From Acidimicrobiia bacterium (GTDB lineage: Bacteria; Actinomycetota; Acidimicrobiia; Spongiisociales; UBA5794), in contig JABDJC010000091.1 of NCBI GenBank assembly GCA_013003395.1, positions 1 through 32,386 on the forward strand: a DNA stretch of 32,386 bases. Direction: 5' to 3'. The number at the start of each line of letters is the position of its first letter. Positions within the stretch are counted from its first letter, which is position 1. Under the pieces are notes generated by a model. The model saw nothing but the letters and a program-made list of their open reading frames with translations, did not search any database and had not been told where the DNA came from. Both the position numbers and the translations under genes were made by a program. Positions 7,224-31,888 of this stretch are shown here, in pieces.

Positions 7224-9284
7224 TCACTCCTCCGTTGAAGCAGTGAGGTGCTTGACCACCTGCGGCGGAGCAGGCTCGTAGTGCGCATGCTCGGCGACGA
7301 AGGTGCCCCGACCCCCGGTCAGCGATCGTAAGTCGTTCGCATACCGCATGATTTCGGAAGTTGGCACGAGCGCCGTGATGGTCTGGGCGTCGCCAAGTGC
7401 CGCCTGAGTTCCCTCGATACGGCCTCGGCGCTGGTTGATGTCACCCATGATGTCGCCCTGGTAGGCACTCGGAACGGTCACGTACATGCGCGAGATCGGT
7501 TCGAGGAGGCTCGTCCCGACCTGAGCGATGGCTTCACGGAAGCCGGCGCGCGCCGCCATCTGAAACGACATCTCCGATGAGTCGACGGAGTGATACTTCC
7601 CATCGACGACGCTCACCCGCATGTCGACCACCGGGTAGCCGAACTTGCCCCCGTACGACATGGCTTCCTGAAGTCCCTTGTCCACTGCGGGTATGAACTG
7701 GCGTGGAATCGATCCACCTTTGATCTTGTCAACGAACTCGTAGCCGGTGCCTCCGGGCAGCGGTTCGAATTCGAGCATGGCCACGCCGAACTGGCCGTGG
7801 CCGCCTGACTGCTTCTTGTGCTTGCCCTCGACGTTCACGGCACGGGTCAACGTTTCGCGGTAGGGGACCTTCACGTCGTCTGTCTTGACTTCCAGATTGA
7901 ATTTGCGGGCGATCTTTTCGAGAGTGACCGCTAGATGCACCTCGCCCATTCCTTTGAGCAAGGTTTGCTTCGTCTCGTCACTTCGCTCCAGAACGAGGGC
8001 AGGGTCCTCGTCGAGAATTCGTGACAGCGCGTCTCCGAGCTTGCTCTCGTCTGATTGATTCTCGACGTAGATGGCAGTCGCCAACGACGGTTCGGGGATG
8101 GGGCGTTTCGTCACCGACACCGGCTTGTCTTTGGGGGCGAGCGTGTCGCCGGTCATGGTCGTGGTGAGTTTCGCCACTGCGCCGATGTCTCCAGCGGGTA
8201 TCGACGGCAGGCTTTCTTGTTCTTTTCCGCGCATCGTCATGATGCCCGACAGACGACCGTCGCTGCCGGCCCGGTGGTTGTAGAGGTGGTCGTCTGGTGT
8301 GAGCGTCCCGGACAACACCTTGAACAACGAGATCCGACCGACGTATGGGTCAGCGATCGTCTTGAACACGAACGCGAGGGGATCGCTCTGCGGGTCGGCC
8401 TCGATCGCCACAGCCTGGTCTCCGGCCTTGATTTCGGCAGCTTCGCGATCCCTCGGTGACGGGCCGATTTCACAGATGAAATCGGCCAGCCGATCGACAC
8501 CAATCGGGACGGTTGCGGATCCGCAGGTGACGGGAAAGACTTTCGCGGCGGCGATTCCTTTGGCCATCGTCCGTTCGAGCACCTCGGGACTCGGTACGTC
8601 GCCGTCGAGATACGCCGCGAGGAGGTCGTCGTCGGCAACGACGATGCCTTCGACGAGGGCGTCGTGAACCTCGTGCTCCTGTTCTTCCATCTCGGTGGGG
8701 ATGGGGCCTTCGCTCGCCGAGCCCGAGTCGTACAGATACGCCTTGTCTGTGAAGAGGTCGGCCACGCCGTGGAAGGATGCGCCGGAACCGATGGGTAGTT
8801 CGATAGGCGCGATTCCTGCACCAAATTTGGACCTGAGCTCCTCCAGCGTCCGGTCGAACGACGCCCGATCCGAGTCGAGCTTGTTGATGAACAACATGCG
8901 CGGAAGGTTCAGCTCTTCAGCCATTCGCCAATGGACTTCGGTCTGAGGTTCGACTCCATCGACCGCACTGACCACGAATACGGCAAGGTCGGCGACCCAG
9001 AGGGCGGCGCGCACTTCACCGATGAAGTCGGCATACCCGGGCGCGTCGATCAGGTTGATCTTGAACCCCTTCCAGACGAAAGGAGCCAGCGCCATCGAGA
9101 TGGACATCGTGCGCTTGTGTTCCTCTGGTTCGAAGTCCGTGACCGTGTTGCCGTCCTCGACTCGACCCAGCCTGGTCGTGAGACCGGCGCGGAACAGGAG
9201 CGCCTCTGCGAGCGTCGTCTTGCCAACAGCGTTGTGTCCAAGCAGCACGACGTTGCGGATCTTGTTTGGCGCGAAACTCTCCAC
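7224..9284 (-). CDS. Elongation factor G-like translational GTPase (EF-G2/FusA2 type)
   Basis: A 686-residue relative of translocase EF-G. GTPase motifs: P-loop GHNAVGKTT (16-24), DAPGY (80-84), NKLD (134-137) and GSA of the G5 loop (VTCGSATVP). Domains II to V follow, including GEVHLAVTLEKI of domain III, YRETLTRAV and SGGHGQFG of domain IV, and the domain V strands LEPISRMYVTVPSAYQGDIMGDINQRRGRI. The switch I region reads EEHKRTMSISM instead of the RGITI of true EF-G, as in the actinobacterial second EF-G-like proteins, whose role is unclear. The track start at 9323 lacks a site; GTG 9284 has GGGAGG eight bases upstream and gives MESFAPNKIRNVVLLGHNAVG. The housekeeping fusA is probably elsewhere. 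Confidence 0.9.
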   Translation of the reverse strand: MESFAPNKIRNVVLLGHNAVGKTTLAEALLFRAGLTTRLGRVEDGNTVTDFEPEEHKRTMSISMALAPFVWKGFKINLIDAPGYADFIGEVRAALWVADLAVFVVSAVDGVEPQTEVHWRMAEELNLPRMLFINKLDSDRASFDRTLEELRSKFGAGIAPIELPIGSGASFHGVADLFTDKAYLYDSGSASEGPIPTEMEEQEHEVHDALVEGIVVADDDLLAAYLDGDVPSPEVLERTMAKGIAAAKVFPVTCGSATVPIGVDRLADFICEIGPSPRDREAAEIKAGDQAVAIEADPQSDPLAFVFKTIADPYVGRISLFKVLSGTLTPDDHLYNHRAGSDGRLSGIMTMRGKEQESLPSIPAGDIGAVAKLTTTMTGDTLAPKDKPVSVTKRPIPEPSLATAIYVENQSDESKLGDALSRILDEDPALVLERSDETKQTLLKGMGEVHLAVTLEKIARKFNLEVKTDDVKVPYRETLTRAVNVEGKHKKQSGGHGQFGVAMLEFEPLPGGTGYEFVDKIKGGSIPRQFIPAVDKGLQEAMSYGGKFGYPVVDMRVSVVDGKYHSVDSSEMSFQMAARAGFREAIAQVGTSLLEPISRMYVTVPSAYQGDIMGDINQRRGRIEGTQAALGDAQTITALVPTSEIMRYANDLRSLTGGRGTFVAEHAHYEPAPPQVVKHLTASTEE

Positions 9285-9431
9285 GGCCTTGGCCTCCCTC
9301 AATTCGCTCGGGCAAGTGCGCACAGGCTAACGAAATCCTGCTCCCGGCTCCCGGTGCTTGTCCCGCGAGTTCGGAAACGGTGCCAAACCTTTACGCTGGG
9401 AGCCGAATCGTCACCCAGCGGAAGGTTCCTG

Positions 9432-9986
9432 TTGAAGATCGACAACGAGTTCGAGGTTGCCCGGCCGCCTGACGTGGTGTGGGCGTTCTTTCAAGATGTG
9501 CCAGGAGTGGCGAGCTGTCTTCCAGGCGCTGAGTTGACGGAAGACCGGGGAGATGGCACGTATGCCGGCATCGTGTCCGTGAAGCTCGGACCGATGAACG
9601 CGACGTTCGAAGGTCAGGCCAGTCTGACGCCAGACGAGTCGACCCACTCCGCACACCTGGAGGGCAAGGGCGCCGACCGCAAAGGTGGAAGTCGCGGGTC
9701 GGTGAAGGTCGACTATCGGCTTGTGGCGACCGATTCTGGCGGCACCACCGTCATCGTCGAAGCCGATGTCTCGCTGGCGGGTCCGGCTGCCCAGTTCGGG
9801 AGAACGGGCATCATCAATGAGATGTCGAACCGGCTCGTATCCGATTTCGTTGCCTGTCTCGAGGCAAAGCTAGAAGCTGAGACACCCGAGCAAGCTGCGG
9901 AGATCGAGGCAGGCGAGGTCAACGGATTCAAATTGCTGCTCGCGAGTTTGGTTGCCTGGCTCAAGAAGATTCTGAGGAGATCATGA
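9432..9986 (+). CDS. coxG: CoxG-like SRPBCC family protein
   Basis: A 184-residue protein of the CO dehydrogenase subunit G (CoxG) family, a START/Bet v1-like fold that in the known cox system helps recruit the dehydrogenase to the membrane. The pattern is typical: FEVARPPDVVWAFFQDVPGVASCLPGAE at the N-terminus, then GTYAGIVSVKLGPMNATFEG and a strand ending in AGPAAQFGRTGIINEMSNRLVSDFVACLEAKL. A C-terminal hydrophobic helix (FKLLLASLVAWLKKIL) could be a membrane anchor. The track ORF starts far upstream in antisense sequence. TTG 9432 with GGAAGG six bases upstream gives MKIDNEFEVARPP. Its TGA overlaps the next ATG (9983). It lies about 5 kb from the coxSLM operon, not inside it. Confidence 0.88.
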   Translation: MKIDNEFEVARPPDVVWAFFQDVPGVASCLPGAELTEDRGDGTYAGIVSVKLGPMNATFEGQASLTPDESTHSAHLEGKGADRKGGSRGSVKVDYRLVATDSGGTTVIVEADVSLAGPAAQFGRTGIINEMSNRLVSDFVACLEAKLEAETPEQAAEIEAGEVNGFKLLLASLVAWLKKILRRS

Positions 9987-11770: not shown

Positions 11771-13324
11771 ATGCGTATCAGTTCTATCGGACATGCCGGG
11801 TTCGAGATTCGTTCTGGTAGCGCGACAATTCTCGTCGACCCATGGTTTTCGCCCGAGGGAGCGTTTCTCGGATCCTGGTTCCCGTACCCGAACAACGAGC
11901 ATCTGCTCGAGCGTGACATCTTTTCGCCGGACGCAATTGTCATCTCTCATGAGCACCTCGACCACGTCGATCCATGGTTCCTTGCTCGGGTGCCGCGCAA
12001 CGTACCGGTGTTCATACCGAAATACCCCTCTCAGGCACTGCCCACCAAGATCCTGAGCGGTGGCGAGCGCAGGATCACGGAGGTCGAGGAGTGGGTCGAG
12101 ACCGAGGTGGCGCCTGGCTTACGGGTCTTCTTCATATCGGAAGAGTCTCCGATGAACCATGACTCTGCGATGGTCATCAGGACCGATGAGAAGGTGCTGC
12201 TGAACCTCAACGACGCCCGCCTGACACCCAGCCAGATAAGAAATGTGAAGGCCAATGTCGGCGGAAACATCGATGCTTTGAGCATCCAGGGCGCCGGTGC
12301 TTCTTGGTTCCCCGTCTGCTACGACTACGACGACGCACGGCGACGGGAACTGTCGGTTGCCAAGCGCAAGGCCAAACTCACCTACGTGGCCACGGTTCAC
12401 GAGATCGCCGAACCAGTGATGACCCTGCCGTTCGCGGGACCTCCCGCGTTTCTCGATGACGCGCTTCGGCATGTGAACGTCGAGATGGGACCGGAAGGCA
12501 TCTTTCCCGACCAGGAACAAGTGGCCGAATGGATGGCACAGCAGGGGATAGCGGACACTGCGGTGCTCTTGCCGGGCGATGTCTGGGACACCACTTCCGG
12601 CTCCATCGAGCGCGATCCGCACTGGGCTGACTTTCGCTTCGACCATCGCGAGCTGTACATCGCCGGCTACGCCGAGCGCCGCAAAGCGGACCTCGCCCGG
12701 TTACATGCGAGATATCCGACACCGGACCGAGACCTGTGGGAGGAGTTCAACGCCTATTTCGATCGAGTCCTGGCGATGAGCCCGTACTTCAACGAGAACA
12801 TCGACATGAAGGTGGGATTCGAACTGAAGGGTCCTGGCGGCGGCGATTGGTCCGTGGACTTCAGGCCGGGCCACGAAGGGATCACCCGGGGAACTCAGGG
12901 ATGTCACTACGTGTACACATTCGAATCTCGATGGCTGCCTCCGATTCTCGACGGATCGATCCCGTGGGAGGACTTCTTCCTGTCCCTGCGATTCACGGCG
13001 CGGCGAGATCCGGATCACTACAACGATCACCTTCTCGGGTTGCTGAAGTTTGCCTGGCCTGATGCGCTGGACGCCGTCGAGGAGTACGAGACGAGGGAGC
13101 GGGACCACGAAACGATCGACGTGCATGTCGACGGCAAGACGTATCGAATTCAACGGTTCTGTCCGCACGCCAACCAGGACCTCGCCGAAACGGGCGTGCT
13201 CTTGGAAGGTGGGATCCTCCAATGCCTCGGACATCATTACGAGTTCGATCTCGCCACCGGCGAATGCATCAACGGTAGGAGTCGCCCGCTCGAGTCCACC
13301 TTGATCGAAGGCCCCACCAGCTGA
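11771..13324 (+). CDS. Metallo-beta-lactamase/Rieske two-domain protein, CMP-Neu5Ac hydroxylase-like with reversed domain order
   Basis: A 517-residue protein. The N-terminal metallo-beta-lactamase domain (about 1-290) begins GHAGFEIRSGSATILVDPW and has a complete metal motif in SHEHLDHVD (H60, H62, D64, H65) and NLNDAR near 145. A middle region (about 290-440) carries LSLRFTARRDPDHYNDHL. The C-terminal Rieske [2Fe-2S] domain (about 445-510) has C464-P-H466 and C485-L-G-H488, the full ligand set. Several blocks resemble CMP-N-acetylneuraminate hydroxylase (GGxxSGFP-like GAGASWFP, a KRKAKL stretch before LPFAGPPAFL, RDPDHY), but CMAH has its Rieske domain at the N-terminus. An oxygenase-type role is inferred; the substrate is unknown. 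The start has AGGA six bases upstream. Confidence 0.85.
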   Translation: MRISSIGHAGFEIRSGSATILVDPWFSPEGAFLGSWFPYPNNEHLLERDIFSPDAIVISHEHLDHVDPWFLARVPRNVPVFIPKYPSQALPTKILSGGERRITEVEEWVETEVAPGLRVFFISEESPMNHDSAMVIRTDEKVLLNLNDARLTPSQIRNVKANVGGNIDALSIQGAGASWFPVCYDYDDARRRELSVAKRKAKLTYVATVHEIAEPVMTLPFAGPPAFLDDALRHVNVEMGPEGIFPDQEQVAEWMAQQGIADTAVLLPGDVWDTTSGSIERDPHWADFRFDHRELYIAGYAERRKADLARLHARYPTPDRDLWEEFNAYFDRVLAMSPYFNENIDMKVGFELKGPGGGDWSVDFRPGHEGITRGTQGCHYVYTFESRWLPPILDGSIPWEDFFLSLRFTARRDPDHYNDHLLGLLKFAWPDALDAVEEYETRERDHETIDVHVDGKTYRIQRFCPHANQDLAETGVLLEGGILQCLGHHYEFDLATGECINGRSRPLESTLIEGPTS

Positions 13325-13405: not shown

Positions 13406-13873
13406 ATGTCGGACGTGAAGTACACCGCAAACGTCAAAGTCGAACGGTTGCGAGGGCCGATGCGAAAAGCCTGGCTACCGGCTCGAGATGAGCACATCAC
13501 CTTCGGCGTACACAGCGACATCGCCGAGCATTACAACGTTGCTCCGGACGACTTCCCACCGGATGCCACCACCCTCGACTATGTGATCGCAGCTGCCGCC
13601 GGTTGACTGACGGGAACCTTCGGGGGCGCGCTGGAAGCGCGCGGCATCAATGCAAGCGACGGAAATCTCGTCTCGGACACCGTCGGCGAAGTCGAGCTCG
13701 ATGGCAAGGTGCTGGTCATCAAACGCATCAAGACGACCTACACGTTGGCGGGCGTCGCGGTCGATGACAGAGAAACGGTTGCGCGAGTGCTCGAGTTCCA
13801 CGCCGATTTCTGTCCTGTCGCTCGCAGCATCGGCGGGTGCATCGACATCACCACCGAAGTCGAGTACGTCTGA
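13406..13873 (+). CDS. OsmC-family peroxiredoxin-like protein, putative selenoprotein (in-frame TGA read as Sec67)
   Basis: A 155-residue OsmC/Ohr-like thiol peroxidase if the TGA at 13604-13606 is read through. The track stops at this TGA, but the same frame continues without a break as LTGTFGGALEARGI to EVEYV and ends at TGA 13871-13873. In OsmC proteins the peroxidatic cysteine sits at the start of the central helix after an Ala-rich strand end (AA-x-x-C); here IAAAAG-TGA-LTGTF puts TGA exactly at that cysteine. The second redox cysteine is present as C136 in HADFCPVARSIGG. The ATG at 13406 has a perfect AGGAGG (13395-13400), so the track start at 13400 lies on the Shine-Dalgarno. A SECIS-like hairpin follows the TGA. 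The alternative is a nonsense mutation or sequencing error at a Cys codon (TGC to TGA). No selA, selB or tRNA-Sec is in the window. Confidence 0.8.
13604..13606 (+). other. In-frame TGA, putative selenocysteine codon
   Basis: This single TGA interrupts an otherwise intact OsmC reading frame precisely at the catalytic cysteine position. Upstream residues are IAAAAG, downstream LTGTFGGALEARG. Both halves keep family features, and no frameshift is needed to join them. Confidence 0.78.
13626..13642 (+). promoter_or_regulatory. Putative bacterial SECIS hairpin downstream of the OsmC TGA
   Basis: GCGCGC (13626-13631) pairs perfectly with GCGCGC (13637-13642) around the loop TGGAA; a seventh U-A pair is possible, leaving a GGA loop. 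The apical loop starts 25 bases after the TGA. Bacterial SECIS elements lie within the coding region just after UGA, with an apical loop roughly 16-37 bases away and a G among its first loop bases. Both conditions hold. Because GC-rich DNA makes chance hairpins common, this alone would be weak; its position gives it weight. Confidence 0.6.
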
Positions 13874-14607: not shown

Positions 14608-15408
14608 TCAGGCTGTAGCTGCGATTGCTCGTCTGGCGAGCACGCCGGCAAGGTGCACTCGATACTCGCCGGACGCGTAGGTGTCTCCCATCGGATCCGT
14701 GATTGCGGCCGCAACCGATGACATCACCTCTTCGTCGGTTCCCATTGGACCTGTGACTTTCGTGGGAGTTGCCGAGGCGCCGCCGATCACGACGGTTTGT
14801 CCGCTGTCGGAGCGCACCGCGCACACACCGACAACCGCATACGCCGACGCAGGATGACGGTGCTTCTGATAAGAAGCCTTGGCGCCGCCGGCGAGCTTCG
14901 GCACCGTCACGGCGGTGATCAGTTCCGTCTCCCCGAGTGCCGTCTGGAACAGGTCGACGAAGAAGTCGGCGGCTCCGACGTCCCTCGACCCATTGGGCCC
15001 TTGGATGTGCACTGTTGCTCCGAGAGCCACGAGCACGGTTGGATAGTCGGCAGCTGGATCGGCGTGCGCGATCGAGCCTCCAATGGTCCCTCGATTGCGG
15101 ACCTGCGGGTCCCCGATCATCCCAGCGGTCTGACACAGCACAGGCACCGAAGCCTGCACGAGGTCGGACTGGTTGACTTCGGTGTGCGTAGTCGTCGCGC
15201 CGATTCGAAGGCTGTCGCCCTCGTCGGTGATGCCGCTGAGGTCCGGAATCCTCCCGAGGTCGATGAGCGCGTCAGGCTGGGCCAGACGCATCTTCATCAC
15301 CGGAATCAAGCTGTGGCCGCCGGCCAGTGCTTTACCGCCTTGTTGGAGCAAGGCAAGTGCCGCATCGACGGATTCGGGACGGTGGTAGTCGAATTTCGCT
15401 TTGTGCAT
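14608..15408 (-). CDS. coxM: Molybdenum hydroxylase medium (FAD-binding) subunit, CoxM-like
   Basis: FAD subunit that passes electrons from the iron-sulphur subunit to an acceptor. From ATG 15408 it is 266 residues, slightly shorter than characterised CoxM (about 288). FAD-binding motifs are both present: AGGHSLIP (29-36) and TIGGSIAHADPAADYP (108-123). The start MHKAKFDYHRPESVDAALALL is the classic CoxM N-terminus. The track ORF begins too far upstream at 15522. ATG 15408 has AGGAGG at six-base spacing, partly inside the end of coxL, whose stop is only 10 bases upstream. It is the third gene of the S-L-M operon and is followed by a strong hairpin. Confidence 0.92.
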   Translation of the reverse strand: MHKAKFDYHRPESVDAALALLQQGGKALAGGHSLIPVMKMRLAQPDALIDLGRIPDLSGITDEGDSLRIGATTTHTEVNQSDLVQASVPVLCQTAGMIGDPQVRNRGTIGGSIAHADPAADYPTVLVALGATVHIQGPNGSRDVGAADFFVDLFQTALGETELITAVTVPKLAGGAKASYQKHRHPASAYAVVGVCAVRSDSGQTVVIGGASATPTKVTGPMGTDEEVMSSVAAAITDPMGDTYASGEYRVHLAGVLARRAIAATA

Positions 15409-15418
15409 CTCGCCCCTC

Positions 15419-17773
15419 CTATGCCTTCGCCTCTTGGATTGCCCGCCAGACCCGTTCGGGGGTGAGTGGCATGTGCACCTGTTCCACCCCGAGAGGAGCG
15501 AGAGCGTCGAGTACCGCGCCATATATGGCCGGCGTCGACCCGATGGTCCCGGTTTCGCCGATTCCCTTCACGCCGAGTGGATTCACATCGGTCGGCGTGA
15601 CCGTGTGCCCCAACTCGAATTTCGGAAAGTACTCGGCTTTGGGTATGGCGTAATCCATGAGCGAACTCGTGAGTAGCTGCCCGTCTTCGCTGTACTGCAC
15701 ACCCTCCCACAGCGCCTGGGCGACACCCTGAGCGATGCCGCCGTGGATCTGGCCCTCGACGATCATCGGGTTGATCTGCGGTCCGCAGTCATCAACCGCG
15801 ATGTACCGCTGAAAGTCGATCTCTCCGGTGTCGGGATCCACCTCGACCACCGCAATGTGGGCGCCGAACGGATACACGAAGTTCGACGGGTTGAAGAAGG
15901 CCGAGGCCTCCAGACCGGGCTCCACTCCGTCAGGCATGTTCCACGCCGTGTTGGCCGCAAGGGCGATGTCCTGAATGGTCATCGACGACTCGGGCGAACC
16001 TCTCACATAGAACTTGCCGTCCTCGAATTCGATGTCGGCGGTCGACGCCTCGAGGAGGTGGGCTGCGATCTTGCGGCCCTTGTCCTTGATCTTGTCGATC
16101 GCCCCCATCATGGCTCCACTGGCAACTGGCGTGCTCCTGCTGCCGTACGTGCCCCAACCCATCGCCGTCTGCGCGGTGTCGCCATACTGGACATCCACGT
16201 CTTCAGTGGGTACGCCGAGTTGATCGGCCACGATCTGGGCGAACGTCGTCTGCTCACCTTGGCCGTGCGGGTTGATGCCAACCATCAGTCGGACCTTGCC
16301 AGATGGATGGAAACGGACGATTGCGCTCTCCCACAGTCCGCCTCCGAACCCGACGGCACCTGCCACCTCTGACGGCCCGAGACCGCAGATCTCCGAGTAG
16401 GTACAGACGCCAATGCCGATGTAGCGGCCCTCGGCTCGTGCAGCCGCTTGTTGGGCACGCAGCTCGTCGTATCCAGCCATGTCCTTGGCCTTGTCGAGCG
16501 CCGCTTGGTAGTTGCCCGTGTCGTAGATCAGGCCCGTCGCCACCTCATGTCCCTCAGTGAAAGGTGGAATGAGGTTCTTCTCGCGTATTGCGACCGGATC
16601 CATGTCGAGCTTTTTGGCCACCAAGTCGACCAATCGCTCGACCATGAACGTTGCTTCGGGTCTGCCCGCTCCCCGATACGCATCGACCGGTGTCGTGTTG
16701 GTGAACATTCCGTACACGTCCTCGTGGATGTTTGGAATCGTGTAGGCGCCCGACAGCATCAAGCCGTGCAAGATCGTTGGTACCCCGGTCGACGCCGTTG
16801 AAAGGTATGCGCCGAGGTTGGCCCAGACCTTGGCGCGTAGACCCGTGATCGTGCCGTCGCTCTTTGCAGCCATCTCGACGTCCTGGATGTGGTCGCGACC
16901 GTGAATCGTCGCCTGGAAGTTCTCGCTTCGCGTCTCGGTCCACTTGACCGGTCGGTCGAGTTGCTGAGACGCGAAGATCGTCATCGAGTCTTCTGGATAG
17001 TGGGGGATCTTGCTCCCGAATCCTCCACCGACGTCCGGGGCGATCACTCGGATCTTGTGTTCGGGAATGCCAGTGTCGAGGGACAACAAGAATCGAACGA
17101 TGTGCGGATTCTGGCTCGTCGTCCACAAGGTGAGTTCGCCCATGCCTGACGACCATTGCGCCAATGCTGATCGAGGTTCCATCGCAACCGGGACGAGTCG
17201 TTGGTTGATGATTCGCTCACCTACGACGATGTCGGCCTCGTTGAAGGCCGCCTCGACATCGCCCCCTGAGACCGTCCAATGGAAGCATTGGTTGTTCGGG
17301 GCGTCATCGTGCAACTGTGGGGCACCATCGGCGTGTGCCTTCTCCCCATCGGTACATGCCGGTAGCTCGTCGTAGTCGACCTCGACCACCATTGCGGCAT
17401 CCTTCGCCACGTAGTCGTCATCGGCCACCACGATCGCGACCGCGTCTCCGACGTAGCGGACCTTGTCGATCGCTATTGGCGGGTGGTTGGGCGTGACGGT
17501 TCCCGCGTCTGGGACTACCCACGCGCAGGGGATTCCGCCAAAGCCGGCGTCGACCATGTCCTGTCCGGTCCAAACGCCAAGCACTCCGGGCATTTCGAGC
17601 GCGGCGCTGGTGTCGACCGACACGATGTTTGCGTGCGCGTACGGTGAGCGGACAACAGCGAGATGCACCATGCCGGGCAGCACGAAGTCGTCGGTGTACT
17701 TCGCCTGGCCGGTGATCATCCGCGGATCTTCGAGGCGACGTTGGTCATGGCCAAAGGGCCGAATAGCCGTCAT
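15419..17773 (-). CDS. coxL: Molybdenum hydroxylase large subunit, form II CoxL-like
   Basis: Catalytic molybdopterin cytosine dinucleotide subunit of the xanthine oxidase family, 784 residues, full length. It opens with [20 protein letters not shown]. Cofactor motifs include DVGGGFGSK (about 246-254), [18 protein letters not shown] and [15 protein letters not shown]. The conserved catalytic glutamate is in [14 protein letters not shown] (about 737). The active-site loop at 365-371 is AYRGAGR, the form II signature; true CO dehydrogenases (form I) carry AYRCSFR with the Cu-binding cysteine. So CO oxidation is not established, and another aldehyde or N-heterocycle substrate is possible. The start overlaps the coxS stop (ATGA, 17770-17773). 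Gene order S-L-M is also that of form II operons. Confidence 0.93.
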
Positions 17774-22386: not shown

Positions 22387-25300
22387 ATGGCAAGTATGAC
22401 GGCAGCAACTTCGCGCGGCTCGAAGTGGGCTGCTTTCGCAGCTTTGACGCTCTTGATGAGCGTTGTCGTGCCACTGCCAGCAGGGGCTCAGGTGACGCTT
22501 CCGCTCGTCGTTGACCAGAACGACGAAGGGTGCAATGACACGGCCGGTGATCCGTATTGCACCATCCAGGCGGCCATTGACGACGCAGTAGACGGCGACG
22601 TCATCGATATCGCCCCAGGTTTCTACGACCAAGAGCTCACCATCGCGAGCAAGTCCATCAGCCTCATTGGGCAGGATCGCGCTACGACCCTCATTGACGG
22701 AACCGGGTTGTTCCGCGTTCTCACCATCAGCGGCGCCCCAACGACATCGATCGAATCCGTGACCATCCAGAACGGAAACCACTGGGAAGAGTCCGCAGGC
22801 ATCTGGAACGACGGCGACCTCACCGTCACCGACGTGACGTTCGACTCCAACGTCATGGACGAAGGCAACGAATACGGCGGAGCCATCTATCACGAACTGG
22901 GCAACCTGACCGTCGTCGACTCCACCTTCATCGACAACGAGGCCTACGACTACGGCGGCGCGATCTATGTTGAAAGTGGTACTGCGTCGATCACCGACAG
23001 TCACTTCGAGACCAACTACGCCGGGGAAAACGGTGGGGCCCTGTACGTGTATTCCGGCACTGTCGAAGTCGCGGGTTCGACGTTCAGTGCCAACTTCTCG
23101 GGCGACACGGGTGGCGCCATCTACGTCTTTTCAGGTGACCTGACCATCGATGCTTCCATGTTCGTCGACAACGTGACAACCGATGTCGGCGGAGCCATCG
23201 ACACCGACTCGGCTCCGATCGTCGACATCTCCAGTTCGATCTTCACCGACAACGTTGCGAACGGTATCGGCATCTCAGCCTCGGGCGACGGAGGCTCGAT
23301 CTCGAACTTCGGTACGATGACAGTCACTGGCTCCACGTTCACCGGCGACTACGCAGAAGGATGGGGCGGGTCGATCGCCAACGACTCAACCATGACGATC
23401 AGCGACACGTCCATCTCGGGTGCGTTCGCCTCAGCCGGTGGCGGCCTCATCGACAACTCTGCGTCGCTGACGATCAATACGTCGACGTTGTCGAGCGGCG
23501 GCACGTACAACGACGGCGCGGCAATATGGAACAACGGTGACCTGACCATCACTGACACGGCGTTTGCCGACGGCTTCGCGGGCTGTGGGGAGTGTTCGGG
23601 CCGAGGTGGCGCGATCTACCACTCAGGCGACTTCGGCGGCGACCTCACGGTGACCGGCGGTTCGTTCACGAACAACACTTCCGACGGAAATGGCGGAGCG
23701 ATCGTGATCGACGGAGGTCTGAACAACGTCGTTTCGGGCGCCTCGTTCACCGGTAATGAGTCGTACTACGACGACGGCGGAGCGATCGCCGTGATCCTGG
23801 GCAGCATCGACATCGACTCGGCGACGTTCACCGGCAACACTGCTGACAGTGAAGGCGGCGGGCTGTACCACCATGCCTCTGTTGCCACGGTGACCGGCTC
23901 GACGTTCAGCGGCAACTCAGCCGGATCGTCGGGCGGAGGTATCTGGAACAACGGCACTGCGAACATCTCTGACTCGCTGATCACCGGCAACGTCACGGGA
24001 GGCTACGGAGCCGGCATCCTCAACGACCAGATCATGACCATCGATGCCAGCACGATCTCGCTGAATGTCGCAGACGGTGGCGGCGGTGGAGTCTTCAGCG
24101 TCGACCAGTTGACGATCACGAACACGACGATCAGCGAAAACGAGGCACTCGGTCTCGGGTTCCTGTTCGGTAACGGTGGAGGCATCGTCGGTGAAGCCAC
24201 CACCACTTTGGACGGTGTTGGCGTCTACAACAACGTTGCGGAAAACGACGGCGGTGGCCTCTACGTCGACGGCTCTCCTTGGGACATCTCGGCCAGCACG
24301 ATCGCAGGCAACCTCGCCGGTCGTGACGGCGGCGGCATCCACAGTGATGGCGACATCATTCTCACCAACTCCACAGTCGGCGAGAACTCGGCGATGGGCG
24401 ACGCGGGCGGCATCTACAACGAAGGCTCACTCGAGTTGCGCCACGCTGCATTCATCTTGAATCAGGCAGCCGGTACTGGCGGAGGCGTCCTCAACCACGA
24501 CACCATCACGATGTCGAACTCCGTGGCTGCAGGGAACTCGTCGGGCGGCGCGCAGGACTGCCTTGCAGGCGACATCATCTCGCAGGGCTACAACGTGATC
24601 GGCCGGCAAGGGTGTCTCGATGTGATCCTCCCGACAGACCAGGTCGGTACTTCCGAGGCGCCGATCAATCCCATGCTCAGCGGCCTTCAGGACAATGGCG
24701 GTCCGACGCTCACCTATCTGCCGCTGCTTGGCAGCCCGCTGATCGACAACGGGAACCCGATTCCCGTGAGCGAACCCGAGCCGTGGGGCTGTGAACCCGT
24801 CGACCAACGCGGTCTGAGTCGTCCGATAGGAACCAGTTGCGACGTCGGACCCCTCGAGATCGATCCCGGTGTTGTCACCGTCTCCATCAGCACGAACTCG
24901 ACCGAGGTGCTTCCCGGTGCGAGCGTCGTCGACAAGAGCGCGATCCCGAACTCCGACCTGAACTCGATCGCCGCCTCACCGGTGTCCTCGATCCCGGTCA
25001 GCTCGATCCCCGTTTCCAGTATTCCGGTCTCCTCGATTCCTGTGTCGAGCATTCCGGTCTCCTCGATTCCCGTTTCCAGTATTCCGGTCAGTTCGATTCC
25101 GGTGTCGTCCATCCCGGTGTCATCCATCGGCGTGTGCGGCGAGTCGCCTGACTGGGGCGCAATCCTTGCCGGAACTTCGCTAGCCGGACTGCCGCTGCAA
25201 ACAGTCACCTTGCAGCAGGTCCTTGCGCTCAACCCGCTTCCTGAGTGTGTGGCATCGCTCGATCTCGGCTCGATCGAATTGGGTGACTCGATCCTCGGCT

Positions 25301-28300
25301 TGCTCACTCCAGCCGCCCTGGCTCTTGGAGATACAGGTCTCGACCAACTGCCGATCGGGTCGTCGACCAATCCGATCGACGACTGGTGCGAGTTGCTCAG
25401 TCTCAACGGCTTCGACTGTGCTGCGAACAACATCACGGGAACGAGCACCATCGCAACCCTGGACATCTTGGGAGCGCCGGTCTCGTCGATCCCGGTGTCT
25501 TCGATCCCCGTGTCGTCGATCCCGGTCAGCTCGATTCCGGTGTCTTCGATTCCGGTGTCTTCGATCCCGGTGTCTTCGATCGGCACGATCTTCGATTGCA
25601 GCTCCTACGACTGCACTCAGGGAACCATCGGTGACGGTCTCGCGGCGGGAGCAGCGCTGCCCGGCCTGACACTCGGTCAGCTCCTCCTTGTCGTGGTGCC
25701 AGCGGATTCACTTCCACTGGGTCAGTTGCCTTTGAGCGACCTGAACCTGCAGCTCTACGATCCCGCCAGCCCGATCATCGACTACGTAGTGGAGTTCGAC
25801 TTCACCGGCACGTCATCATTCGCCGTCATGTCTGTCGAGCTGCCAGAAGGCTTCTTGTACATCGAAGGGTCGGCGCAGCTCATCGAGATCAATGAGGTGG
25901 AACAAATCCACGTGATCGGTGATCCGACTGTTGTCGACAATGTGCTCACGTGGTCACCGACGTTCCAGTTGAATGCGTTCTCGGACTACTTCCTCGAGTT
26001 CGAAGCACATCCGGGGCTCGTCACAGGATCGTTCGCAACGACCGCGACCGTCACTGCTTCCGACGCCCTCGCGTCTGACACCGGTGCGACCGTCACCGTG
26101 ATCCCGAACTTCGAGCCAGGTGGTGACGACCCCAACACGGCTCCGACCGTCGTGCAGAACGGTGTCGTCATCTCGCACCTGTCGACGTCGTCCGACAATG
26201 ACTTCTTCGATCTCGAAATCCCCAACGATCCGGGAACGCAGATCCGGTTGACCTTGACCCAGCAAGGATCGGACAACGACCTCGTCGTGTACAAGCCGTT
26301 CTCCGAACAGCTCAGTGCCTTCGACGATCGAGACGCCGGCGTCCCCGCCAGTCCAGTAGAAGATCCAGGTATCACCGGCATCAACCAGCAGGACAACCTG
26401 GCGCCCGAAACACTGCAGGACATCGACATCCAGTCCGCGCCTGTCTCGAGCATCTCTGCGAACCGCGACGACGCCGACGAGGAAGTCGAAATCACGGTTT
26501 CCTCGGAGGAGGCCGCGTCATCGTCGACGTACACCGTGCAAGTGACTGGGTACAACGGCGCGACGAGCGACCAACCGTATCTGCTCACCGCCGACATCGT
26601 CGACGACGTCTATGTCTCATGCTCGCCAACGTCGTTCCCGTTCGCTGATCCAGGCGTGCCGACCGCAACCGTTGATCTGTCAGCGTTGCCGACCGATCTC
26701 ACGACGCTGATCTTCTACAACGCTCGACGACTCGAAATGCGATACGGCGCAGCAGATGCTGCTGCGGCCGTGGCCGACATCCAGGCGTTCGTCGACCATC
26801 TGAACGGACTCGGTGACCCTGAGGTCGGTGCGCTCGGCATCGTCGCTGCGGCCATCGACGTCGAGACCGTCATCGGCATGGACATCAGCTCTCTGTACGC
26901 GGCGTGGGACGCCGATCCGTGTAACCCCGACAACGCAAACACCGTTGTGTCTGGCATCACCGGCATCGTCTCGGCCTTGCACGGCGCAGGAGCACCGCTG
27001 CGTTTCGTCACACTCGTCGGCGGCGACGAAATGATCCCGATGGAGCGTGTGCCAGACCTGACCACGCTGTCGAACGAGTCCGACTACGCAAGCACTTTCG
27101 ACACCGACACACCGCTCTACGGAGCCTTGGCGGCTGGACGCATCCTGTCTGATGATGCATACGTCGACGTCGATCCAATCCCGTGGCTTGGTCGCACGCT
27201 GTTCGTTCCTGACCTTGCTGTCGGTCGACTGCTCGAATCGCCGGCTGAAATCAGCGCCGCGCTCGAGCTCTTCGTGACGAACGATGGCCTCCTCAATCCG
27301 CAGTCGGCGCTCGTGACCGGCTACGACTTCCTGGCTGACGGGTCGCAGGACGTGGCGACCGCGTTGACGGACAGCCTTGGCACCGCTCCCGACACGTCGC
27401 TGATCAGCGACACGTGGGGATTGACCGAACTCGTCGACACCTTCCTACCGCCGGTACCGACGCCGTTGGTCGACGTCGCTTCGGTCAACGCCCACTACGA
27501 CCACTATCGGGCGCAACCTGCCGATGCTGGCAGCGGCTTGTTCGAAACGGCCGACCTGATCGCCAACGGCACCGACCCGACCACGGGCGACTCTCGTCTC
27601 ACCAACCAAATCGCATTCTCGATGGGTTGCCACTTCGGTCTCAACGTTGCGGACAACGCGTTTGCTGCGGGTGATGTGCGGGCCCAGGACTGGATGCAGG
27701 TGTATGCGCAGCACGGAGCGATCTCTGTCGGCAACACCGGCTACGGATACGGCGACACTGCTGCTGCAGCGCTTTCTGAGCGACTCATGACGTTGTTCGC
27801 TGAGCGCCTCGACGGTTCGATGGCTATCGGCGAAGCGTTGACGTTTGCGAAGCAGGAGTACGTCGGCGGGCTTGGTCTGTACGGCGTCTTCGACGAGAAG
27901 GTGCTGACCGAAGCGACCTTCTACGGCATTCCGTTCTACGGTCTCGGCACCGGCGGCACGTTGCCGCCGGCACCGATTCCATTCGATGCCGAGGTCGATC
28001 CGGTGACGGGTCTCGATACGTCCACCATCGAAGTGAGCGGAATCGACTTCAACAGTGCGCTCCCTGTCGATGACACCGTGCGAGTCGTCACCGGCTACGA
28101 CGTCACCGACGTTGTGGGCGGCGGAGCGCCAGCCGGCGAAGCGCCACCAGCACGCAATCAGGTGACGCATTACCGGCCGATTCAGCCGCTCATTCAGATC
28201 GACGTGACGCCGGATCCCGCCGACGGTAAGGCCCACGGCGCGCTGATCGAGACGTTGACCAGCGTCGACACTGGCGGCATCTCGCCTGTGGTGTCGCGTC

Positions 28301-30708
28301 CTGTCATCGACCTGACCGCCAACGAACCAGCGTACGACTTCGCTGATACGATCTTCCCTGCCGTGTTCCACAGCGTCACGCACTTCCGCACGCCAACTGG
28401 CGAGCGCCAGCGCCTCGTGCTGATTCCGGGTCAATTCTTCACCGAAGATCCCGGATCCGGAGTGGGAACCCAGCGCGACTACACCCAGTTCGGGACGAAG
28501 ATCTACTACTCGAACAGTGACGACTTCACGGCTCCGTACATCCAACTCACGGATGCATTCGTTGCCGGCGGAGTGGTTGAGTTCAACATCACCGCGGACG
28601 CCGGGGCCGGCGACTCGGTGCAGCGAGTGTTTGTCCTGTTCAAGGACGACACCGGCGTCTGGACGCCGCTCGACCTCACCGGCTCGGGCAACGGCGCCTG
28701 GAGCGGGAGTGCGGCGGGAGTTGTCGGTGATCGCATCGAGTACTTCGTTCAGGTCGTCGACGAGAACGGCAACGTTGCGGTATCGACCAACAAGGCCCGG
28801 TTCTTCACAGCCCGATTGGTGGATGTGAATGCGGTTCCGCAGTCGACCTCGGAAGGTGCGGAAGTCTCGCTGCTGACCTCATTCACGGTGCCAAGCTCGG
28901 TGGTTGGACCGGTGAACCTCACGATCGACTGGGGCGACGGCGCCACCGAAGTGATCGAGAACGCCACATCGCCATTCAACGCAACCCACACCTACGCCGA
29001 CAACGGCACATTCCCCGTGGTCTCGTGCATCTCCGACGACGCCGGCTTCGAAGTCTGCGACGCGACTGACGTGGACGTGGCCAACGTTGCCCCTGTTGTC
29101 GATGCCGGTGCCGACATCTCCGGATCCGAACTGACCGTGACGGTCGAGGGAACGTTCGTTGATCCTGGCCTCAACGATCCGCACTCCGTCAAGTTCGACT
29201 GGGGCGACGGAAGCATGGACGAGTTCCCGCTGGAGCAAGGTTCTCGCACGTTTGAGGGCGTCCATACGTACGCCACCGACGGGTCGTACACGGTGACCGT
29301 CACGGTCTCCGACGAGGCGGCGTCTGGTTCCGACTCGGTGGACGTGTTCATAGGCAACTCGCCGCCGGTCGTCGACGACACCACCCTGTCGGTCGATGAG
29401 AACTCGGTGCCGGGGACTTCAGTGGGCACCGTCACAGCTTCGGATCCCGATGTTGGTCAGACGCTGAGCTTCGCCATCACGGCAGGCAATGCGGGCGGCG
29501 AGTTCGCCATCGACTCGGCTACAGGAGAGATCACGGTCGACGGAGCGCTCGACCACGAATCTCAGGATCAGTACGTCCTGACAGTCGAAGCGACGGATGA
29601 TGGGACGACCCCCGCGTCCGGCTCTGGAACCGTCACCATCGACGTGAATGACGTCAACGAGACTCCAACCGTCGACGACGCCAACTTCGGCATCGCCGAC
29701 GACACGGGCATCGGTGGATTCGTCGGCACCGTGGTGGCGAGCGATCCAGATGATGGAGATTCGCTCACCTACTCGATCATCGGCGGCAACACCGGCACCG
29801 CCTTCGCCATCGACAACGCCGGCGACATCACGGTTGCGGCGCCGCTCGACGCAACGGTTCAGGACTCGTACACCTTGACCGTGCAGGTCAGCGACACCGG
29901 CGGGTTGACTGACACTGCGACGGTCATTGTCGATGTCACATCGGCAGGCGAAGCCGTCGTCATCGAATCGTTGACCATCGATCCGATCGATCCGATCGAG
30001 TTGGTCCCGAACCTCGGCGCCGACGCCACGGCGACTCTGGTCTGGACGGGTGACGCGACTGCGATCCTCATCGACTGGGGTGACGGGACACAGTCGGCGT
30101 CCACGCCGGGCACGGGAGACACGACGTTGATTGCCGACCACACGTACCTCGACACTGGCGTATTTGCCGTCACGGCCACGGTCACCGACATCTTCGGAAC
30201 CGAGCACGTTCTCGTCTACGAGTACGCAGTCGTGTTCGACCCGACGGCGGGATTCGTCACGGGCAACGGCAAGATCGATTCGCCTCTGGGGGCATACGTT
30301 CCGGATCCGTCCGTCGGTGGCGACCTGCAGGTCGGCTTCCACGCTCAGTACAAGAAGGGTGTACTCGAAGGCGACATCAAGATCGACCTCAAGGATCTCA
30401 ACCTGAAGTTCCGTTCCAAGGGCGACGAGTTGAACACCTTGGTCATCGCAGGTGACTTCGCCTACGTCGAAGGCGTGGGGACCTTTGACCAGGACGACGA
30501 CCAAATCGTCTACGAGTTCATCGTGACGCTCATCGACGGAGAGCACACCGATGGCGGTCCCGACTTGGTGAGGGCGCTCATCAGGCTCGCGTCCGACCCC
30601 ACCGTCGTGATCTACGACTCGCAGTTCGGCGACCCCGACGGCGCCGACCCGACCACCGAGCTGGCGAGCGGCAACTTGATGATCAAAGTGCTGAAGGGAC
30701 CGAGGTAG
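22387..30708 (+). CDS. Giant secreted mosaic protein: beta-helix, PVSSI repeats, gingipain-like region, PKD and cadherin-like repeats
   Basis: A 2773-residue exported protein. A signal peptide (about 1-35) has hydrophobic core WAAFAALTLLMSVVVPL and AGA before QVT. Residues about 40-830 form a right-handed beta-helix of GGAIY/GGGIWN and STFSGN-type repeats, ending in a choice-of-anchor-Q region (DNGGPTLTYLPLLGSPLIDNGN, DQRG). Ten PVSSI pentapeptides lie at 865-914 and seven at 1031-1065, separated by a Cys-containing Leu-rich spacer. A prepeptidase-like strand region lies at about 1245-1400. Residues about 1430-1870 resemble peptidase C25/gingipains, with candidate dyad H1703/H1706 (AHYDHYRA) and C1748 (SMGCHFGLN). 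PKD-like WGDG repeats lie near 2182, 2272 and 2563, two cadherin-like repeats at about 2330-2525, and a post-COAP-like C-terminus from about 2620. A cell-surface or extracellular role (adhesion, proteolysis or both) is inferred. Confidence 0.9.
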   Translation: MASMTAATSRGSKWAAFAALTLLMSVVVPLPAGAQVTLPLVVDQNDEGCNDTAGDPYCTIQAAIDDAVDGDVIDIAPGFYDQELTIASKSISLIGQDRATTLIDGTGLFRVLTISGAPTTSIESVTIQNGNHWEESAGIWNDGDLTVTDVTFDSNVMDEGNEYGGAIYHELGNLTVVDSTFIDNEAYDYGGAIYVESGTASITDSHFETNYAGENGGALYVYSGTVEVAGSTFSANFSGDTGGAIYVFSGDLTIDASMFVDNVTTDVGGAIDTDSAPIVDISSSIFTDNVANGIGISASGDGGSISNFGTMTVTGSTFTGDYAEGWGGSIANDSTMTISDTSISGAFASAGGGLIDNSASLTINTSTLSSGGTYNDGAAIWNNGDLTITDTAFADGFAGCGECSGRGGAIYHSGDFGGDLTVTGGSFTNNTSDGNGGAIVIDGGLNNVVSGASFTGNESYYDDGGAIAVILGSIDIDSATFTGNTADSEGGGLYHHASVATVTGSTFSGNSAGSSGGGIWNNGTANISDSLITGNVTGGYGAGILNDQIMTIDASTISLNVADGGGGGVFSVDQLTITNTTISENEALGLGFLFGNGGGIVGEATTTLDGVGVYNNVAENDGGGLYVDGSPWDISASTIAGNLAGRDGGGIHSDGDIILTNSTVGENSAMGDAGGIYNEGSLELRHAAFILNQAAGTGGGVLNHDTITMSNSVAAGNSSGGAQDCLAGDIISQGYNVIGRQGCLDVILPTDQVGTSEAPINPMLSGLQDNGGPTLTYLPLLGSPLIDNGNPIPVSEPEPWGCEPVDQRGLSRPIGTSCDVGPLEIDPGVVTVSISTNSTEVLPGASVVDKSAIPNSDLNSIAASPVSSIPVSSIPVSSIPVSSIPVSSIPVSSIPVSSIPVSSIPVSSIPVSSIGVCGESPDWGAILAGTSLAGLPLQTVTLQQVLALNPLPECVASLDLGSIELGDSILGLLTPAALALGDTGLDQLPIGSSTNPIDDWCELLSLNGFDCAANNITGTSTIATLDILGAPVSSIPVSSIPVSSIPVSSIPVSSIPVSSIPVSSIGTIFDCSSYDCTQGTIGDGLAAGAALPGLTLGQLLLVVVPADSLPLGQLPLSDLNLQLYDPASPIIDYVVEFDFTGTSSFAVMSVELPEGFLYIEGSAQLIEINEVEQIHVIGDPTVVDNVLTWSPTFQLNAFSDYFLEFEAHPGLVTGSFATTATVTASDALASDTGATVTVIPNFEPGGDDPNTAPTVVQNGVVISHLSTSSDNDFFDLEIPNDPGTQIRLTLTQQGSDNDLVVYKPFSEQLSAFDDRDAGVPASPVEDPGITGINQQDNLAPETLQDIDIQSAPVSSISANRDDADEEVEITVSSEEAASSSTYTVQVTGYNGATSDQPYLLTADIVDDVYVSCSPTSFPFADPGVPTATVDLSALPTDLTTLIFYNARRLEMRYGAADAAAAVADIQAFVDHLNGLGDPEVGALGIVAAAIDVETVIGMDISSLYAAWDADPCNPDNANTVVSGITGIVSALHGAGAPLRFVTLVGGDEMIPMERVPDLTTLSNESDYASTFDTDTPLYGALAAGRILSDDAYVDVDPIPWLGRTLFVPDLAVGRLLESPAEISAALELFVTNDGLLNPQSALVTGYDFLADGSQDVATALTDSLGTAPDTSLISDTWGLTELVDTFLPPVPTPLVDVASVNAHYDHYRAQPADAGSGLFETADLIANGTDPTTGDSRLTNQIAFSMGCHFGLNVADNAFAAGDVRAQDWMQVYAQHGAISVGNTGYGYGDTAAAALSERLMTLFAERLDGSMAIGEALTFAKQEYVGGLGLYGVFDEKVLTEATFYGIPFYGLGTGGTLPPAPIPFDAEVDPVTGLDTSTIEVSGIDFNSALPVDDTVRVVTGYDVTDVVGGGAPAGEAPPARNQVTHYRPIQPLIQIDVTPDPADGKAHGALIETLTSVDTGGISPVVSRPVIDLTANEPAYDFADTIFPAVFHSVTHFRTPTGERQRLVLIPGQFFTEDPGSGVGTQRDYTQFGTKIYYSNSDDFTAPYIQLTDAFVAGGVVEFNITADAGAGDSVQRVFVLFKDDTGVWTPLDLTGSGNGAWSGSAAGVVGDRIEYFVQVVDENGNVAVSTNKARFFTARLVDVNAVPQSTSEGAEVSLLTSFTVPSSVVGPVNLTIDWGDGATEVIENATSPFNATHTYADNGTFPVVSCISDDAGFEVCDATDVDVANVAPVVDAGADISGSELTVTVEGTFVDPGLNDPHSVKFDWGDGSMDEFPLEQGSRTFEGVHTYATDGSYTVTVTVSDEAASGSDSVDVFIGNSPPVVDDTTLSVDENSVPGTSVGTVTASDPDVGQTLSFAITAGNAGGEFAIDSATGEITVDGALDHESQDQYVLTVEATDDGTTPASGSGTVTIDVNDVNETPTVDDANFGIADDTGIGGFVGTVVASDPDDGDSLTYSIIGGNTGTAFAIDNAGDITVAAPLDATVQDSYTLTVQVSDTGGLTDTATVIVDVTSAGEAVVIESLTIDPIDPIELVPNLGADATATLVWTGDATAILIDWGDGTQSASTPGTGDTTLIADHTYLDTGVFAVTATVTDIFGTEHVLVYEYAVVFDPTAGFVTGNGKIDSPLGAYVPDPSVGGDLQVGFHAQYKKGVLEGDIKIDLKDLNLKFRSKGDELNTLVIAGDFAYVEGVGTFDQDDDQIVYEFIVTLIDGEHTDGGPDLVRALIRLASDPTVVIYDSQFGDPDGADPTTELASGNLMIKVLKGPR
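24979..25128 (+). repeat. PVSSI pentapeptide repeat block 1 (10 copies, 15-bp period)
   Basis: Ten uninterrupted in-frame copies of Pro-Val-Ser-Ser-Ile. The protein repeat is perfect, but the DNA is not: Ser is written as TCC, TCG, AGC, AGT or TCA and Ile as ATC or ATT in changing order. That points to protein-level constraint on an old repeat rather than recent slippage. Confidence 0.92.
25477..25581 (+). repeat. PVSSI pentapeptide repeat block 2 (7 copies, 15-bp period)
   Basis: Seven uninterrupted copies of the same PVSSI unit, about 350 bp after block 1. Codons here are more alike (GTGTCTTCGAT recurs), suggesting partly more recent duplication or conversion than block 1. Both blocks end with Ile-Gly. 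A lone PVSSI also occurs later in the protein (about residue 1351). Confidence 0.92.
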
Positions 30709-30717
30709 TACGGGGGC

Positions 30718-30742
30718 GGCCGAGGTGGGAGGCACCTCAGCC
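30718..30742. terminator. Bidirectional terminator-like hairpin between the giant gene and coxE
   Basis: GGC-C-GAGGTG (30718-30727) and CACCTC-A-GCC (30733-30742) pair with one C-A mismatch around the loop GGAGG, giving nine base pairs. It overlaps the coxE stop codon (30737-30739) in the 28-bp convergent gap. No T-run is present. Confidence 0.5.
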
Positions 30743-31888
30743 GCTGCTCCTCCTGGCCGGGAGTGTTTCTAGGAGGCGTACCAGCGAACGCAGATCGTTG
30801 ATGGTCGCGGCTGCCAGGAAGTCATCGACGTGGGGGAGGGCAATCCGTAGGCCCTGGGTCTCGGCGCTGTAGCCGGTGCGTCCGGCCAACGGATTCAGCC
30901 AAACCACACGGTGTACTGAGCGAGCGAAGCGTGCCATCTCGACTTCGAGCACTTCGGGATCTCCGCAGTCCCACCCGTCGGAGATGATGAGGGCCACGGC
31001 ACCTCCTCGGGTGAGGCGACGACTCCACTGCCAGTTGAATTCTCGGAGCGCCTCTCCGATGCGTGTCCCGCCGGACCAGTCGTTCACATGGCGTCCCACG
31101 GATCGCAAAGCCATCAGCGGATCCGGTTGTCGCATTTCGCGAGTGACTCGCGTTAGATGCGTCGCGAAAACGAACGACTCCACTTTGCCGAGTCTGCCTT
31201 GCGCGGCGTGCATGAAGTAGAGGAACATCTCGGCGTAGCGATCCATCGATCCACTGACATCAGCGAGCACGATTAGGGGTCGCCGCCGCGGCTTGCGGCT
31301 GGACATCGCCAGCGGAATGAGGTCGGCTTGCGGCGACGACAGTGAGCGGAACGTCCGTCTCATGTCGGGCACGTCGCCTCGCGACGAGGGCATCCGCCGT
31401 CTGCCGAGCGCGTCCGCCGGCCTCCACACCATCGTGGCCATGATTCGGCGAACCTCGGCGATTTCTTCAGGGGTCAGCGCCGCAAAGTCTTTGCGGCCGA
31501 GACGCTCGATGATCGAGCCTCCGACATGTTCCTGGAGGTCGTCGCGTTCCTTGCGTTTTCCAGTGTTCATCATGTCGCGGAGTACTGGAGTGACCACCTT
31601 GGCGTCCTGCCGATCGAAGATCTTCAACTCGAGCTCTGCCATCGATTTGCGGCGGTGGGTCGGTCCGCTCCCGAAGAACAGCTCGAAGGCGTCGTCGAAC
31701 GCTGGAATGTCGGCTCGGCGCACCACGGTCAGCGCGCGGAAGCCGGCTTTGAGCGCGGCTTTGTCATCCCACCCCAGGGTTGCGGCGGCACGTTGCAGAT
31801 CGAGCGTCGTCGATGGCACGACAGCGAGTCCGCTCAACCTGAGATATCGCACGAAGTGGACGAGGTTGTCGGCGAGCGCCGTCGTCAT
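30737..31888 (-). CDS. coxE: CoxE-like von Willebrand factor A domain protein
   Basis: A 383-residue soluble protein of the CoxE family, a VWA-domain partner of the MoxR-type ATPase CoxD; in studied cox systems the pair helps mature the metal site of the molybdenum hydroxylase. The N-terminal helical region (FVRYLRLSGLAVVPST, AFDDAFELFFG) is typical of CoxE. The VWA domain starts near 203, with the metal-ion-dependent adhesion site complete: DVSGSM (210-215), the SGGTRIGEAL threonine and the ISDGWD aspartate. The start ATG overlaps the stop of the ATPase gene (ATGA, 31885-31888), so they are a coupled pair. They lie over 12 kb from coxSLM, so serving that enzyme is inferred; this gene pair also occurs without cox operons. 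Confidence 0.88.
   Translation of the reverse strand: MTTALADNLVHFVRYLRLSGLAVVPSTTLDLQRAAATLGWDDKAALKAGFRALTVVRRADIPAFDDAFELFFGSGPTHRRKSMAELELKIFDRQDAKVVTPVLRDMMNTGKRKERDDLQEHVGGSIIERLGRKDFAALTPEEIAEVRRIMATMVWRPADALGRRRMPSSRGDVPDMRRTFRSLSSPQADLIPLAMSSRKPRRRPLIVLADVSGSMDRYAEMFLYFMHAAQGRLGKVESFVFATHLTRVTREMRQPDPLMALRSVGRHVNDWSGGTRIGEALREFNWQWSRRLTRGGAVALIISDGWDCGDPEVLEVEMARFARSVHRVVWLNPLAGRTGYSAETQGLRIALPHVDDFLAAATINDLRSLVRLLETLPARRSSG

Follow-up and report, generated by a model that had tools for sequence, protein, structure and literature searches.

The window analysed here, a stretch of 32,386 nucleotides from an Acidimicrobiia bacterium (contig JABDJC010000091.1), contains an OsmC-family gene at 13406-13873 (+) whose reading frame carries a single in-frame TGA (13604-13606, +) and also ends at TGA (13871-13873). 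Read through the internal codon, the gene encodes a 155-aa protein, MSDVKYTANVKV...IAAAAG-U-LTGTFGGALEARGI...HADFCPVARSIGG...EVEYV, with the TGA at residue 67 (U67) in the motif G-U-L-T-G-T. In a profile search the product passed the curated cut-off of the OsmC/Ohr superfamily model PF02566 (39.6 bits versus 27.5, E = 7.1e-10). Its AlphaFold model has a pLDDT of 88, and the best PDB matches in a fold search were OsmC/Ohr structures (Foldseek E about 1e-8, TM about 0.7), whereas a PDB search with the sequence profile gave no match at 1e-3. The codon directly 3′ of the TGA (CTG, 13607-13609, +) is near-invariant, with CTG used for 51 of 52 Leu codons, and Cys136 (TGT, 13811-13813, +), within FCPVARS, is an invariant alignment column. 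We take the positions of U67 and C136 to be those of the two redox cysteines of the OsmC/Ohr family. The TGA occupies the catalytic-Cys position of the protein, and, following the OsmC/Ohr layout, Cys136 is likely the resolving residue, with Sec67 replacing the peroxidatic Cys. By analogy with this family, the product probably reduces organic hydroperoxides.

The gene just 5′ (11771-13324, +) combines a metallo-beta-lactamase fold, an SCP2-like domain and a C-terminal Rieske domain. The window also contains subunits of CO-dehydrogenase-type molybdenum enzymes (14608-17773, −; 8931-9983, +; 30737-31888, −), CoxG-like and CoxE-like genes at other sites, and an ORF of 2773 aa (22387-30708, +) with polymorphic membrane protein repeats and PKD and cadherin domains.

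If TGA had been reassigned genome-wide to Trp or Gly, the internal codon would likewise be read through, and the hairpin described below would be unrelated to it. However, no internal TGA interrupts the window's long ORFs, and TGA is the terminator of the OsmC-family gene itself. The codon further aligns with Cys in relatives of family f28, and the genome carries a tRNA-Sec and sel genes, which together make reassignment exceedingly improbable.

A hairpin 3′ of the UGA codon

A 7-bp stem, GCGCGCU/AGCGCGC (13626-13642, +), starts with the 20th nucleotide 3′ of the TGA and has the pairs G13626-C13642, C13627-G13641, G13628-C13640, C13629-G13639, G13630-C13638, C13631-G13637 and U13632-A13636. 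It closes on the apical loop GGA (G13633, G13634, A13635; 13633-13635, +), which holds the conserved guanine and starts 26 nt after the TGA; taken as 6 bp, the hairpin has the loop UGGAA, and the gap between TGA and loop is thus 25-26 nt. This is the arrangement that the original prediction had read from the letters, a GCGCGC stem of 6 to 7 bp starting 20 bases after the TGA, with its loop about 25 bases away. The hairpin lacks the bulged U of the E. coli fdhF SECIS. We assessed it by folding, codon conservation and homologue comparison.

Bacterial SECIS rules specify an upper stem of 4-16 bp, a loop of 3-9 nt, a G within the first two loop bases and a minimum free energy of −7.5 kcal/mol or lower, and the published distance from UGA to apical loop is 16-37 nt (PMC13188914). 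With 7 bp, the loop GGA, a spacing of 26 nt and an energy of −11.2 to −12.8 kcal/mol (−12.8 in the local fold), the hairpin obeys all of them, including the spacing and loop-guanine rules to which it had been said to conform. An Rfam search across the window gave no match at the gathering threshold (best local E 5.7). Folding, which had been proposed as a check, gave stem pair probabilities of 0.95-0.99, and 0.8 for the closing U-A pair, in folds starting at or after the TGA, including those from +13 onward, the RNA left outside a ribosome stopped at UGA. With 24 nt of upstream sequence included, competing folds appeared and the stem probability was 0.18-0.33, a value that we discount because the ribosome would occupy this stretch.

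We also compared the local fold with synonymous codon shuffles, in which the protein was held fixed and codon usage was drawn from eight neighbouring ORFs. Only 1% of shuffles folded equally well (P = 0.01) and 4.3% had an equally good rule-conforming hairpin anywhere in range (P = 0.04), but about 19% satisfied the published energy rule. In a G+C-rich genome, this pass rate means that the published rule is permissive and that one sequence proves little. The window sequence by itself is therefore no more than suggestive of a SECIS, and the conclusion rests on homologues. The 19% of shuffles with a rule-conforming hairpin also speak for the alternative that TGA encodes Sec while the hairpin is a by-product of the protein and of G+C-rich codon usage, the true SECIS being another or longer structure.

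Codon and hairpin conservation among homologues

A scan of GTDB genomes returned 23 relatives of the gene, with TGA at the Sec position in 21, TAG in two and Cys in none, and a profile search that covered 397 genomes of the phylum identified TGA rows in 40 of them, together with seven Cys rows, all belonging to family f28. TGA is shared at this codon by 67 sequences drawn from many independent assemblies; the reading frame is kept 5′ and 3′ of it across phyla, the downstream protein is conserved and C136-P137 is invariant. The source assembly is a draft MAG (3.24 Mb, 82% complete), as might suit a sequencing error, a pseudogene or a true stop, with the conserved hairpin playing some other role. 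Against this stand the sharing of the TGA among independent assemblies, the conserved protein beyond it and a switch to TAG exactly where the tRNA-Sec has the anticodon CUA, so that we give this explanation almost no weight.

In the tree, the window sequence sits within a core clade (support 98/88) made up of 53 TGA rows and a single TAG row; no Cys row falls inside it, the Cys rows lying apart, and the OsmC gene of the window belongs to a Sec-only clade. Two distant OsmC relatives with TGA (L079 and L080, of family f39, with the motif UMMGT) fall outside the Cys rows as well, which suggests a separate gain or loss of Sec; their hairpin differs from the GCGCGC hairpin of the window.

Comparative statistics were computed for 54 non-redundant TGA homologues and 7 Cys homologues, excluding L079 and L080 on account of their distance, their tree position and their lack of this hairpin, and the hairpin was scored as kept when at least six of the seven pairs and the loop G were present. 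It is kept in 48/54 Sec homologues and in 0/7 Cys homologues (Fisher p = 4e-6), a contrast explained in part by the amino acids of the stem codons, which differ too in the Cys relatives. The two refuting conditions named beforehand, no stem in TGA homologues and a stem equally present with Cys, were both decided in the prediction's favour.

The codons GGC GCG CTG GAR/GCA/GGA GCG CGY, which encode GAL(E/A/G)AR, are nearly frozen in the 54 TGA homologues. Where the amino acid is conserved, 72 codon columns could be scored; synonymous conservation is highest at five of them, +1, +8, +9, +11 and +7, four of which are stem codons, while +12 ranks eighth in excess codon identity. Synonymous conservation is higher in stem codons than in the rest of the gene (Mann-Whitney p = 3e-6), and it persists in sequences with Ala or Gly instead of Glu, with loop G and spacing kept. 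The stem codons, at which the original prediction held that protein and RNA must be satisfied together, are the most synonymously constrained in the gene. CTG at +1 was considered as a Sec-context signal and rejected, as it is also found in 6/7 Cys relatives.

The folding excess over codon shuffles is deepest directly after the UGA. Because the genomes are G+C-rich, whole-region folding excess and z-scores failed to tell Sec rows from Cys rows (p = 0.24, n = 7 Cys); the two are distinguished by the hairpin-specific and synonymous-site tests. Homologues had also been expected to reveal compensatory changes, and here the prediction held in part: the stem and loop G are kept, but the main stem shows no clean double compensatory change among TGA homologues, and its variation is one-sided (G-C to G-U, U-A to U-G). 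Support for the stem therefore comes from synonymous-site conservation and not from covariation.

Five of the six exceptions among the 54 fold into a different, longer hairpin at the same site, and L081 differs from these. The longer hairpin, GGGGGUGCC/GGCAUCCCC, spans about +13 to +50 after the TGA, shows coordinated wobble changes and replaces the GCGCGC hairpin in one subclade (L034, L043, L044, L046, L047 and L050). In L044, its apical loop has no G in positions 1-2. Some sequences of Desulfobacterales and Chloroflexota have an extra outer helix. Both the substitution and the added helix would suit a SECIS that is longer than, or other than, the GCGCGC hairpin, yet synonymous conservation is maximal exactly at the stem codons, even with Glu changed to Ala or Gly, and loop G and spacing are conserved, which leaves the by-product explanation improbable. 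We therefore favour, at a probability of roughly 95%, the reading that 13626-13642 serves as the SECIS in a gene for an OsmC-family selenoprotein, where the UGA at 13604 would almost certainly be read as Sec. On this reading, when the ribosome reaches the UGA, SelB carrying Sec-tRNA-Sec would bind the apical loop, with its GG, directly outside the mRNA channel and deliver selenocysteine, and the ribosome would continue through the codon to yield the 155-aa OsmC-fold protein with Sec67 and Cys136.

Selenocysteine machinery and relation to known families

The source genome contains a tRNA-Sec with a UCA anticodon, adjacent selA and selB genes (contig C12), and selD on the same contig as the tRNA-Sec; selA, selB, selC and selD are all present. 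The selD gene is itself a second selenoprotein gene, with an in-frame TGA at a Sec/Cys position (SHGAG-U-ACK; L110:1531-1533, G000:C47). Across the 397 genomes, tRNA-Sec was found in 34/40 genomes with a TGA-OsmC gene versus 203/357 without one (p = 5e-4). Four of the six TGA-OsmC genomes lacking a detected tRNA-Sec are at most 82% complete, and in a further genome (G120, 96%) with no tRNA-Sec found, selB matched over the first 251 of 581 model positions. In G185 (98% complete; TGA-OsmC locus L067), searches found neither tRNA-Sec nor selB, an unexplained exception for which contig misbinning or a missed gene may be considered.

Two homologues from Geodermatophilaceae, of Modestobacter (L037) and Blastococcus (L038), have TAG at the Sec codon, and the tRNA-Sec of both genomes carries the anticodon CUA (genes L099 and L100, labelled tRNA-Pyl by ARAGORN). 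Decoding of UAG as Sec by the tRNA-Sec of Geodermatophilaceae has been published (PMC5330540), and the same pairing of TAG with tRNA-Sec(CUA) in these genomes provides independent support for the codon being Sec. The part of that paper that names UAG-Sec cases lists FDH, UGSC-motif and AhpC genes and does not mention an OsmC case. The TAG homologues add a likely UAG-Sec gene in this family.

The SECIS of the window is an ordinary bacterial SECIS with a known mechanism, and what appears to be new is the branch of its host gene. Like the bacterial elements of PMC13188914, it is an in-coding stem-loop that matches them in early loop G, spacing, upper stem and energy, but the window family differs in its unusual nucleotide-level conservation (GGCGCGCUGGARGCGCGY) across phyla. 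An OsmC-like selenoprotein with the motif UxxT is known from the Sargasso Sea and GOS sets (PMC1088965, PMC2398784; NCBIfam NF041052, OsmC_like_Se), and the catalogue of PMC13188914 has one OsmC entry, with UxxT. The window protein shares with the former the PF02566 fold and Sec at the catalytic Cys position, but its motif is U-x-T-x-T, with Gly at +3, so that ULTG stands in place of (U/C)xxT, and it scored 14.5 bits against the NF041052 cut-off of 95. An NF041052 member (L112) reads CVLT, in keeping with UxxT, while the window subfamily reads ULTGT; NF041052 members score near noise with the profile of the window subfamily (A1), and the two profiles barely detect each other. The wide miss of NF041052 and the U-x-T-x-T motif thus point to a separate Sec-OsmC subfamily. 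With Ohr/OsmC peroxidases the protein has in common the fold and the two-residue redox layout, but it has Sec for the peroxidatic Cys and 10-19% identity, and the NCBIfam Ohr/OsmC models stay below cut-off; none of the NCBIfam models exceeded its own cut-off. The subfamily seems uncatalogued in PMC13188914 and NCBIfam, absence from these sources being no proof.

On balance, we consider it rather probable that the gene represents a second OsmC subfamily in which nearly all members contain Sec, distributed over Actinomycetota, Chloroflexota, Desulfobacterota, Myxococcota and KSB1, with a SECIS that most lineages keep nucleotide-frozen and one actinobacterial subclade has remodelled into a longer form, and with UGA changed to UAG alongside tRNA-Sec(CUA). 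Automatic annotation would end the gene at residue 66, and its recognition extends a peroxidase family by a Sec-only branch that lies outside current NCBIfam models. More than 50 diverse sequences are available for weighing one SECIS against its protein-coding constraint and, if the proposed history is true, the subfamily would be a natural series for SelB-SECIS recognition.
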